NCBI GenBank assembly: GCA_021806295.1
Contig: JAJZXS010000045.1
Span: 1-46,026 of the forward strand
From: Thermoplasmata archaeon
GTDB lineage: Archaea; Thermoplasmatota; Thermoplasmata; Thermoplasmatales; Thermoplasmataceae
DNA length: 46,026 bases
Direction of reading: 5' to 3'
Of the stretch, positions 30,302 through 32,911 are shown piece by piece. Both the position numbers and the translations under genes were made by a program. The notes beneath the pieces are model-generated. The model did no database searches and was not told where the DNA came from. It saw only the letters and a program-made list of their open reading frames with translations. Numbering within the stretch: position 1 is the first letter of the stretch; every line of letters starts with the position of its first letter.

Positions 30302-30483
30302 TTTACAGTTTAGATAATTCTATGTTGGATTAAAGCTTATTGGTCAGTCTGGCACTCCTTGATTTAATGCACTGTTTACGTAGTGGGTTTCTCCACTAAA
30401 GCATGCTGCTTCCAGTTTATATGTTAAAATACAGGTTACAAATAAATTTAAATAATGTTATATTATTATAACTCTGGAGATTT
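30302..30483. other. Intergenic region with two adjacent hairpins
   Basis: TAGTGG (30381-30386) pairs with CCACTA (30393-30398) across six bases, and AAGCATGCTGCTT follows directly (30399-30411; 5-bp stem, 3-base loop). This pair is GC-richer than the rest and could be an insertion-element remnant or an RNA. The right part holds the promoter of the next gene (AAATTTAAATAATG run) and GGAG four bases before its ATG. Confidence 0.35.
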
Positions 30484-30936
30484 ATGAGCCTTAATGTCAG
30501 GACGTTGATACGTTTATCAGACCATGAAGTTGAGAATGATATTGCATCAAAGGTTTACATCAATGTTCCAAAAAAGGTTCTGGAGATGTATCCTGTAAAG
30601 GTTGGATGCGTTTTAAATGGTGAAGTTGAGCAGATCAAGAAATTCATAGATGAAAATGAATCACTCAACCCACAGATAAGAACCGGCGCGAAAAATTACA
30701 GCCAGATCATAGGAAGCCGCGTAAAGATGATATTCTATAGCGGGCAGACCGGCGAAGACCATGATTATCTTTTCTTTCCAAAACAGTTTGCAATAAAACT
30801 CACGTCCTATGCAATCTTTCCCAATGATTACATAATTAAAATGAACTTCGAAAATGTATCATGTGGGTGGAAGCATATTAAGCTTTACAGCGAGACGTCT
30901 GTAAATTTTGATGATACGGAGCAGTATTATGACTGA
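30484..30936 (+). CDS. Unknown protein, first gene of the Vps4/ESCRT-III-like module
   Basis: 150 residues, family not recognised. Predicted to be mixed alpha/beta and soluble, with no signal or membrane segment. Visible segments: KVYINVPKKVLEMYPVKVGCVLNGEVEQIKKF, a Gly-Lys/Arg stretch SQIIGSRVKMIFYSGQTGED, and IFPNDYIIKMNFENVSCGW, with an acidic C-terminus (DDTEQYYD). The alternating hydrophobic pattern would fit a small beta-barrel or adaptor fold, but this is a guess. Its TGA overlaps the start of the AAA ATPase (ATGACTGA), so the two are translationally coupled and probably act together. A GGAG ribosome site precedes ATG 30484. Confidence 0.75.
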   Translation: MSLNVRTLIRLSDHEVENDIASKVYINVPKKVLEMYPVKVGCVLNGEVEQIKKFIDENESLNPQIRTGAKNYSQIIGSRVKMIFYSGQTGEDHDYLFFPKQFAIKLTSYAIFPNDYIIKMNFENVSCGWKHIKLYSETSVNFDDTEQYYD

Positions 30937-32026
30937 AAACAGAATTGACCATGTCAGCTCCCTGATTAAGAAAGCCATGGATATGGAATCTTCCGGAAAC
31001 AGGGCTGAGGCTGCAAAGATATACAGGGATGCTTATAATGAGGTAATGGAAATTGCTGCGCACTCCTCCGGAAAAATCAGGGAAAAAAGATTGCACCAGG
31101 CAGAAAGCCTGAAAAAGATCTATGAATCCATAGGTGGCAAATACGTAGAAAAGGATAGAATCGGAGAAGGCAAGAAAATACTTGAGCAGTTAAATATAGA
31201 GCCACCCGAGATACCAAAGGTAACTTTTCAGGACGTTGCAGGGCTTGAAAATGTAAAGAACGAGATAATGTCAAAAATAATATATCCAATGAGATACAAA
31301 GAGCTTTCACAGGAATATAATATAGAATTCAGCGGCGGGATGCTCCTCTACGGCCCCCCTGGAACAGGAAAAACTTTTATTGTCAAGGCCATAGCCAATG
31401 AGGTGAAGGCTAATTTTATAAATGTAAACCCATCCACATTATACAGCCAGTGGTTCGGGCAGTTTGAAAAAAATATTTCCCTGCTTTTCCATGCAGCCTA
31501 TCTTCTTTCTCCATCAATACTGTTCTTCGACGAAATTGATACACTTGTACCGAAAAGATCTGGATCAGAATCTGATGCTGCAAGGAGAGGTGTGTCACAA
31601 CTTCTAACAGAGGTGGGTGGACTCACCTCCCAGAAAGATAGAAATATCTTCATAATAGCTGCAACGAACAATCCATGGGGTATAGATGAGGCAATAATGA
31701 GGCCGGGACGGTTTGATGTCAAGATATACGTTCCACCACCTGATTATGAATCAAGGAAAAAATTGTTCCAGCTAAAGCTATCTGAGATAAAGCATCTTGG
31801 TGAAATTGATTACGACGGGCTCGCAGCCAGAACAGAGAGGTATTCAGGTGCGGACATTGAATTTATTTGCAAGAAGGCTGTCCAGAATGTCTTCATGGAG
31901 GTAATAAAAACAGGAAACAGGGTAGATGTTACAACAGAGGATCTTCTTGAGGTTATATCCCAGATAAAACCATCAATAGACATAGGGCTTCTAAAGAAAT
32001 ACCAGGATTACATTTTGAGCACCTGA
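30929..32026 (+). CDS. Vps4/CdvC-like AAA ATPase with MIT-like N-terminus
   Basis: 365 residues from ATG 30929, which overlaps the upstream stop; the in-frame ATG at 30908 is less likely. Residues about 3-75 (RIDHVSSLIKKAMDMESSGN...RDAYNEVMEIA...LKKIYESI) form a three-helix pattern like the MIT domain that binds ESCRT-III tails. Then the linker with VTFQDVAGLENVK, Walker A GPPGTGKT at 142-149, pore loop QWFGQFEKN (as WxGxxE in Vps4), Walker B ILFFDEID at 197-204, arginine-finger region MRPGRFD and sensor-2 region YSGADIEF. A short C-terminal helix (LKKYQDYIL) matches Vps4 size. One AAA domain, unlike Cdc48/VAT. Predicted to disassemble the helical partner encoded next. Confidence 0.85.
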   Translation: MTENRIDHVSSLIKKAMDMESSGNRAEAAKIYRDAYNEVMEIAAHSSGKIREKRLHQAESLKKIYESIGGKYVEKDRIGEGKKILEQLNIEPPEIPKVTFQDVAGLENVKNEIMSKIIYPMRYKELSQEYNIEFSGGMLLYGPPGTGKTFIVKAIANEVKANFINVNPSTLYSQWFGQFEKNISLLFHAAYLLSPSILFFDEIDTLVPKRSGSESDAARRGVSQLLTEVGGLTSQKDRNIFIIAATNNPWGIDEAIMRPGRFDVKIYVPPPDYESRKKLFQLKLSEIKHLGEIDYDGLAARTERYSGADIEFICKKAVQNVFMEVIKTGNRVDVTTEDLLEVISQIKPSIDIGLLKKYQDYILST

Positions 32027-32160
32027 AATCAGGATATTCTATAGCCAACAAAAATTTTATTTCCAGAACAATAGACCGTGAGGTTTCAACAGCAATCCCA
32101 TATAATTACTGCTTGATTTCACACCGAAATGTTTATTACAGGGTAAATACTATAAATATT

Positions 32161-32781
32161 ATGTCCATTTTGCCTAAAAAAAAGCATCAGCTCACAAAGG
32201 AGGAGCAGCTTGAGGAAACCAAAGTAAAAATTAAGGATTTACAGATGAACTTAAAGAGGGCCATAAGGGCGCTTCTCAAAAGGGCACAGTCGCTGGAAGA
32301 AAGCAGGAAGGCGGCAGAGGAGAGAAACTATACAGATATAGAACATGGCCTCTCAAAGCAGATTAATGATGTACGGTCATTTATCACATACTTTGATAGA
32401 ACCAACATTCTTCTGGATTCTATTTCATCCCAGCTTGATATGTTCAATGATGCTGGCAAGGCCATGGATCTAATAGCCAACAGCGAGGTTATCTTCCAGG
32501 CACTGAAAATTACACCGGACCAGCAGGCTACTTATATGAAATCCCTGACAAGCATAAAGGATATAGCAGACAGTAACCTGAACTCTATCAACGATCAGGT
32601 GGAACAGATAAATGAAAATCTGGGATTCAATGAGGGTGCAGAATCTCCAATTTCAGAGGATCAACTTCTTACAAATTTCCTGAAGAGAACTGCATCAAGA
32701 CCAAAATCAGAGGATCAGAAGGTAGATGAAATAGACAAGGAACTGGAAAAAAGAAACACAGAAAGTGAGTCACAGAAATAG
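32161..32781 (+). CDS. ESCRT-III/Snf7-like (CdvB-like) helical protein
   Basis: 206 residues from ATG 32161 (MSILPKKKHQLTKEEQ); an in-frame ATG at 32113 would add 16 residues. The protein is nearly all helix. A basic N-terminus leads into a long alpha1 (KVKIKDLQMNLKRAIRALLKRAQSLEES) and alpha2 (KAAEERNYTDIEHGLSKQINDVRSFITYFDRTNILLDSI), a pattern like the ESCRT-III core hairpin, followed by shorter helices and an acidic tail. The tail DQKVDEIDKELEKRN near the C-terminus resembles an MIT-interacting motif, which Vps4-type ATPases bind. No family name can be proven by eye; helix layout, charge pattern and the adjacent Vps4-like gene carry the call. Confidence 0.6.
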   Translation: MSILPKKKHQLTKEEQLEETKVKIKDLQMNLKRAIRALLKRAQSLEESRKAAEERNYTDIEHGLSKQINDVRSFITYFDRTNILLDSISSQLDMFNDAGKAMDLIANSEVIFQALKITPDQQATYMKSLTSIKDIADSNLNSINDQVEQINENLGFNEGAESPISEDQLLTNFLKRTASRPKSEDQKVDEIDKELEKRNTESESQK

Positions 32782-32794
32782 GGTTCATGGGATT

Positions 32795-32911
32795 ATGATT
32801 CTTAAAAAGGGAAGGGAAGAACCCCTTTTTTTTGACCTGATCGTGTTCAAGCAGCAGAGAAACAGGGCAGAATTTAAAAAAATCATGGGCAGAATTAAGA
32901 GGAACTGGTAG
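32795..32911 (+). CDS. Possible 38-residue basic protein downstream of the ESCRT-III-like gene
   Basis: ATG 32795 to TAG 32909-32911, starting MILKKGREEPLFFDLIVF and ending KKIMGRIKRNW. Composition looks protein-like (basic, amphipathic), and it follows the helical gene by 13 bases. However it overlaps a hairpin with a T-run that looks like a terminator, so coding and terminator readings compete. Confidence 0.25.
   Translation: MILKKGREEPLFFDLIVFKQQRNRAEFKKIMGRIKRNW
32804..32833 (+). terminator. Hairpin with T-run after the ESCRT-III-like gene
   Basis: AAAAAGGG (32804-32811) can pair with CCCTTTTT (32823-32830), followed by further Ts. A 23-base distance from the stop codon of the ESCRT-III-like gene fits a 3' end. 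The T-run alone would be enough for archaeal termination. Confidence 0.5.

Follow-up and report, generated by a model that had tools for sequence, protein, structure and literature searches.

Ferroplasma and Acidiplasma bring into focus the question of how archaea that lack both a wall and FtsZ divide: they have neither FtsZ nor SepF, yet they keep the locus described here, and so provide a simple setting in which to ask whether a euryarchaeal cell can divide by ESCRT alone. The locus lies in a 46,026-nucleotide stretch of contig JAJZXS010000045.1 (the window). The host belongs to the Ferroplasma group and has no cell wall, and the named records most closely related to the locus come from Ferroplasma, among them Ferroplasma acidarmanus Fer1. 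We consider it fairly probable that the locus encodes the minimal ESCRT of Ferroplasma-type Thermoplasmatales, a module for membrane scission whose most likely task is cell division. The core of this answer is already known. In their account of minimal ESCRT systems, Makarova et al. (mBio 2024, PMC10936438) describe a Thermoplasmata "minimal ESCRT" made of Vps4, ESCRT-III, and the beta-barrel protein arCOG07400, name Ferroplasma, and suggest a role in cell division. A sequence-only reading of the window had presented the locus as a little-described system, a claim overtaken by that account, in which the three-gene set and its likely division role were both published. New here are a larger survey of gene linkage and of FtsZ and SepF and, it appears, a microprotein gene and a split of the barrel family into an ESCRT-linked and a helicase-linked branch.

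A four-gene island and its relatives

The four genes (Table 1) are flanked on both sides by genes in the opposite orientation and so form one island. The barrel and ATPase genes overlap through ATGACTGA, with the ATG start of the ATPase inside the overlap, which confirms the coupled pair of a 150-residue protein and a single-AAA ATPase in the sequence-only reading. That reading assigned three genes to a span reaching 32911, and these stand; it overlooked a fourth inside the span, a 38-codon open reading frame (ORF) whose stop codon ends at exactly 32911. The ACAAATAAATTTAAATAATG element lies 27 to 46 bp 5' of the barrel gene, is recognizable in further loci beyond the five of Table 1, and would play a TATA/BRE role.

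Table 1. Features of the locus, in window coordinates
Feature	Position	Strand	Remarks
Promoter-like element ACAAATAAATTTAAATAATG, 5' of barrel gene	30438..30457	+	near-identical in 5 Ferroplasma loci
150-aa barrel gene	30484..30936	+	arCOG07400-type, ESCRT-linked branch
Vps4/CdvC-like single-AAA ATPase gene	30929..32026	+	365 aa; NF041006, PF00004, PF17862
MIT-like three-helix domain, ATPase N-terminus	30929..31153	+	PF04212 and ortholog matches
ESCRT-III (CdvB/Snf7-like) gene, fast-evolving Ferroplasma form	32161..32781	+	206 aa; family profile and fold
Microprotein gene (MILKKGREEPLFFDLIVFKQQRNRAEFKKIMGRIKRNW)	32795..32911	+	38 aa, 38 codons; 13 bp 3' of ESCRT-III

Related loci were gathered with an alignment of Vps4, and their genera carry number labels, g1 being Ferroplasma, g18 Acidiplasma, g6 Thermoplasma, and g19 probably Picrophilus. 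The barrel was confined to the window's family within a 300-genome sample of the class. Its gene stands directly 5' of vps4 in 24 of the 24 genomes that carry it, and ESCRT-III lies no more than about 6 kb from this pair in three orders: after vps4, before the barrel gene, or on the opposite strand. A lack of linkage in relatives had been named beforehand as one of three outcomes that would refute the first reading; linkage is instead kept at a level far above chance, and the persistence of the trio despite changed gene order argues strongly that the three genes function together.

Several other arrangements surfaced among these loci. In Ferroplasma acidarmanus (L065:4394-7307) and its near-identical relative G004 (L064:4330-7242), two antisense ORFs of 120 to 121 and 158 aa lie between vps4 and ESCRT-III, so that ESCRT-III probably has its own promoter there. 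Genus g5 encodes, 5' of barrel-vps4, a membrane protein of 101 to 106 aa with the motif DGLxFGLxIKKGV (L111:175-480, L112:82-387), a possible membrane anchor that recurs at 38% identity in a second AAA system (L118:4955-5275). This second system (L091:13-2804, L098:1456-6168, L118:4955-9667) combines a 106-aa membrane protein, a 196- to 198-aa coiled coil, helical proteins of 201 to 212 aa, and a AAA protein of 395 to 403 aa that falls far from Vps4 in our tree; at L098 it abuts a second MIT-AAA protein and a 205-aa helical protein. In genus g12, ESCRT-III and Vps4 flank a conserved cluster of about 10 kb (L182:3359-15150 in G020 and L183:3315-12546 in G087, with similar clusters in L085, L087, L089, L090, and L094) that encodes several proteins of 470 to 640 residues without Pfam matches along with a Double-GTPase linked to the membrane (PF19993, E = 8.7e-12). 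The text of Makarova et al. (PMC10936438) covered by a word search gives no GTPase for minimal ESCRT systems, and the g12 cluster may be an undescribed ESCRT variant. A candidate FtsA-like protein, P0001, was set aside, its single NCBIfam match (E = 0.04) being at chance level.

The module in lineages without FtsZ

FtsZ was absent from all 10 Ferroplasma and all 3 Acidiplasma genomes and was found in 61 of the 64 other genomes of the family; SepF was missing from the same 13 and present in most of the family. A search of the 10 Ferroplasma genomes for CdvA (PF18822) gave no above-chance match (best E = 0.06). Because FtsZ and SepF are absent and CdvA was not detected, cell division is the most likely process for the module, with vesicle release as our second choice.

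In established ESCRT biology, membrane constriction is the work of ESCRT-III filaments, and these are remodeled by Vps4, whose MIT domain docks on the filament tails. At this locus, ESCRT-III would polymerize at the division neck on the inner membrane face; the MIT domain of Vps4 would dock on the ESCRT-III C-terminal tail, and subunits would be pulled through the Vps4 pore, a pulling by which the polymer would constrict and be recycled. The barrel would act as a Vps4 adaptor or site-selector, replacing CdvA, and the microprotein as a small accessory that binds ESCRT-III or the membrane. The "recruiter" role once proposed for the 150-residue protein is a guess. The wider proposal of a compact membrane-remodeling system in a wall-less archaeon has fared better, given an ESCRT-III and a MIT-AAA protein in a host of the Ferroplasma group.

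The module might instead be a true ESCRT for extracellular-vesicle release or membrane repair, with the division of FtsZ-less cells left to actin-like proteins or to mechanical means, a route open to cells without a wall. Thermoplasma has the same module alongside FtsZ and SepF, so division is not the only role that the module could have. The g19 genomes survive with neither FtsZ nor the minimal ESCRT module, and a third division mechanism must therefore exist in the clade. The Sulfolobales ESCRT, moreover, also serves vesicle biogenesis (PMC11188069). We nevertheless judge this explanation unlikely, as the module is retained in all 13 FtsZ-less Ferroplasma and Acidiplasma genomes and its neighborhood contains no genes for cargo-sorting components, a point that Makarova et al. 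(PMC10936438) also argue in their discussion of these systems.

A microprotein and a divided barrel family

The microprotein gene follows ESCRT-III in 12 of 13 Ferroplasma and Acidiplasma genomes, on the same strand and 13 to 69 bp downstream. Ten copies are full length, the exceptions being G001, where an assembly gap interrupts the gene, and G077, where the match is weak. In G002 it still stands behind ESCRT-III, though ESCRT-III is about 5 kb from vps4. No copy was found in G008 or elsewhere in the family outside these two genera. Near the ESCRT loci of G008 (L070:7514-8782) and G003 (L062:1178-2437) lies an extra Vps4-like AAA ATPase of 419 to 422 aa, which in G008 occupies the place of the absent microprotein.

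So short an ORF, with a mean column identity of 56% across its family of 37 to 41 residues, a weak match in G077, and none in G008, could be a chance frame or a conserved RNA element in the 3' region of ESCRT-III that encodes no protein. Its codons make this very improbable. The dN/dS ratio is 0.10 between the window and its nearest relative and 0.02 to 0.27 in the other pairs for which it could be calculated; changes are concentrated at third codon positions in two pairs (P = 3.5e-5 and 5.7e-4; the third pair is not significant); and the frame is retained while the spacing to ESCRT-III varies. Judged by these substitution patterns, the microprotein gene is a real gene under purifying selection, which evolves faster than its neighbors (70% identity where ESCRT-III has 99%). 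We also rejected a frameshifted ESCRT-III tail, the spacings of 13, 29, 31, 46, and 69 bp keeping no constant frame. The basic product (+4 to +8) has an amphipathic C-terminal half and the conserved residues D14, N23, and F27. It belongs to no Pfam or NCBIfam family, its PDB matches are at chance level, and the literature searched contained neither a mention of it nor peptide evidence. Its position suggests that it works with ESCRT-III. It is possible, if doubtful, that it is a dedicated fourth ESCRT subunit, such as a basic amphipathic peptide that binds ESCRT-III or the membrane, which arose in the FtsZ-losing lineage and helped an accessory ESCRT to become the only machinery of division. 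As a small protein, the microprotein offers a new entry point to how ESCRT-III is controlled.

The 150-aa protein corresponds to the beta-barrel arCOG07400, given in the minimal ESCRT account of Makarova et al. as Thermoplasmatales-specific and encoded with Vps4 and ESCRT-III; we assigned the label by position and description, not by COG search. Its sequence matched nothing in Pfam or the PDB. The AF2 model (pLDDT 83) consists of two beta-beta-alpha-beta units and drew weak mixed-barrel Foldseek matches, all with a TM of at most 0.41: the Sen1/SETX 1B barrel (E = 0.02), siderophore-interacting proteins, and FAD synthetase. Two assignments were rejected, namely a Cdc48-N-like double-psi domain (hhalign to Thermoplasmatales Cdc48-N, E = 0.91, with only the predicted strand order suggestive) and duplicated AbrB-like halves, which are no more similar than shuffled ones.

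A profile built from paralogs recovered a second barrel copy of about 130 aa in each of the 10 Ferroplasma genomes and in two of the three from Acidiplasma; in the window's own genome it lies at C17:17090-17479 (L219:5582-5983), and L220, L221, L222, and L224 are further loci of the paralog. Both g19 genomes have the paralog as their lone copy, and its distribution coincides with the lineages that lack FtsZ (g1, g18, and g19). The two branches are related (hhalign E = 6e-13). Every complete Ferroplasma locus inspected has the paralog directly 3' of a DEAD_2/Helicase_C_2 helicase gene, a setting from which the neighborhood in g19 differs. Makarova et al. (PMC10936438), where they turn to Picrophilus, treat its lone arCOG07400 protein as the sole division candidate of that genus. 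Since the lone g19 copy belongs to the paralogous branch, the division role proposed for it is weakened if g19 is Picrophilus; this was the only published candidate, and Picrophilus remains a true puzzle.

ESCRT-III, Vps4, and known systems

Single-sequence searches of the 206-aa protein and the genome for Snf7 found no match, so the link to ESCRT-III needed family profiles. Against the PDB, a profile of 12 relatives matched CHMP3 best (E = 1.7e-4), followed by CdvB (5e-4) and then Vps24, CdvB2, and CHMP2A. Pfam Snf7 was matched in all eight more typical relatives (best 1.2e-8), to which the divergent Ferroplasma form aligns with an hhalign E of 1.5e-5. The AF2 model, of moderate confidence (pLDDT 72), places helices at residues 13-54, 58-107, and 109-154, giving a long alpha1-alpha2 hairpin with more helical structure after it. 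Its top 14 Foldseek matches in the PDB are all ESCRT-III (probability 0.96-1.0), with modest scores (best E 0.0099; TM by query 0.36-0.43) that probably reflect a different helix placement in the model. By family rather than by single sequence, then, profiles and predicted fold identify the protein as ESCRT-III, and the match to CdvB, CdvB2, and CHMP chains upholds the earlier ESCRT-III-like reading. Many tails of the family end in an acidic MIM1-like helix, and the pattern [DE]xxLxx[LR]LxxL occurs in 17 of 28, against 0.05 expected from shuffling (relatedness uncorrected). The tail of the window's own ESCRT-III is without the strict pattern, the Ferroplasma tail DEIDxELEKR being degenerate.

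As first read, the ATPase contains a single AAA module (PF00004, E = 4e-40), with a lid (PF17862, E = 2e-8), invariant GPPGTGKT and FFDEID, and the pore loop SQWFGQFEKN. Its own MIT match (PF04212, E = 0.0018, residues 11-53) is under the Pfam cutoff; MIT was matched in 10 of 17 close orthologs (best 3.4e-7), and weak PDB profile matches of the N-terminus include CdvC and Vps4/SKD1 MIT. Such homology argues for a weak but real MIT domain, so that the proposed MIT-like N-terminus, for which a missing MIT fold had been the declared counterevidence, survives. The CdvC model NF041006 aligns with residues 14-361 at 214 bits, and its equivalog cutoff of 650 bits was reached by the ATPase in no genome of the order; the protein is thus a Thermoplasmata-clade Vps4-type ATPase, not a Sulfolobales CdvC equivalog. 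In a tree of 51 proteins, 20 barrel-linked ATPases and one unlinked member form a supported clade (98/97), and two long-branch barrel-linked ATPases are placed elsewhere. That the ATPase is a general Cdc48-like AAA unfoldase whose neighbors are unrelated coiled-coil and barrel proteins is hardly credible and already largely refuted: the AAA module scores slightly higher with the CDC48 model (221 bits) than with the CdvC model, and the 206-aa protein lacks a Snf7 match by itself, but the CdvC alignment takes in the N-terminal MIT region, the ATPase groups apart from both CDC48 D1 and D2 in the tree, the ESCRT-III matches hold by profile and by fold, and linkage outlasts rearranged gene order.

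Literature searches turned up no experimental work on the minimal ESCRT module. Frohn et al. (2022) concluded that euryarchaeal Cdv proteins form no common system, on the ground that they found no interaction domains; for Thermoplasmatales, the predicted MIT domains and MIM1-like tails argue against this. The minimal ESCRT of Makarova et al. (PMC10936438) has the same genes, organisms (Ferroplasma, Acidiplasma, and Thermoplasma), and proposed role, and differs in that its description there includes neither the microprotein nor the split between ESCRT- and helicase-linked arCOG07400. The locus resembles eukaryotic CHMP3/Vps24 and Vps4 in the CHMP3 profile match over about 170 residues and in its MIT-AAA order; unlike the eukaryotic ESCRT, it has no ESCRT-0/I/II genes beside it, and its MIM motif is weak in this species. 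It departs from the Sulfolobales CdvABC system in that CdvA was not detected, an unrelated barrel standing beside Vps4 instead, and in the single ESCRT-III gene found per genome in the window's genus. With that system it nonetheless shares homologs of ESCRT-III and the MIT-AAA Vps4, and the closest folds to its 206-aa protein are the CdvB and CdvB2 filaments of S. islandicus.
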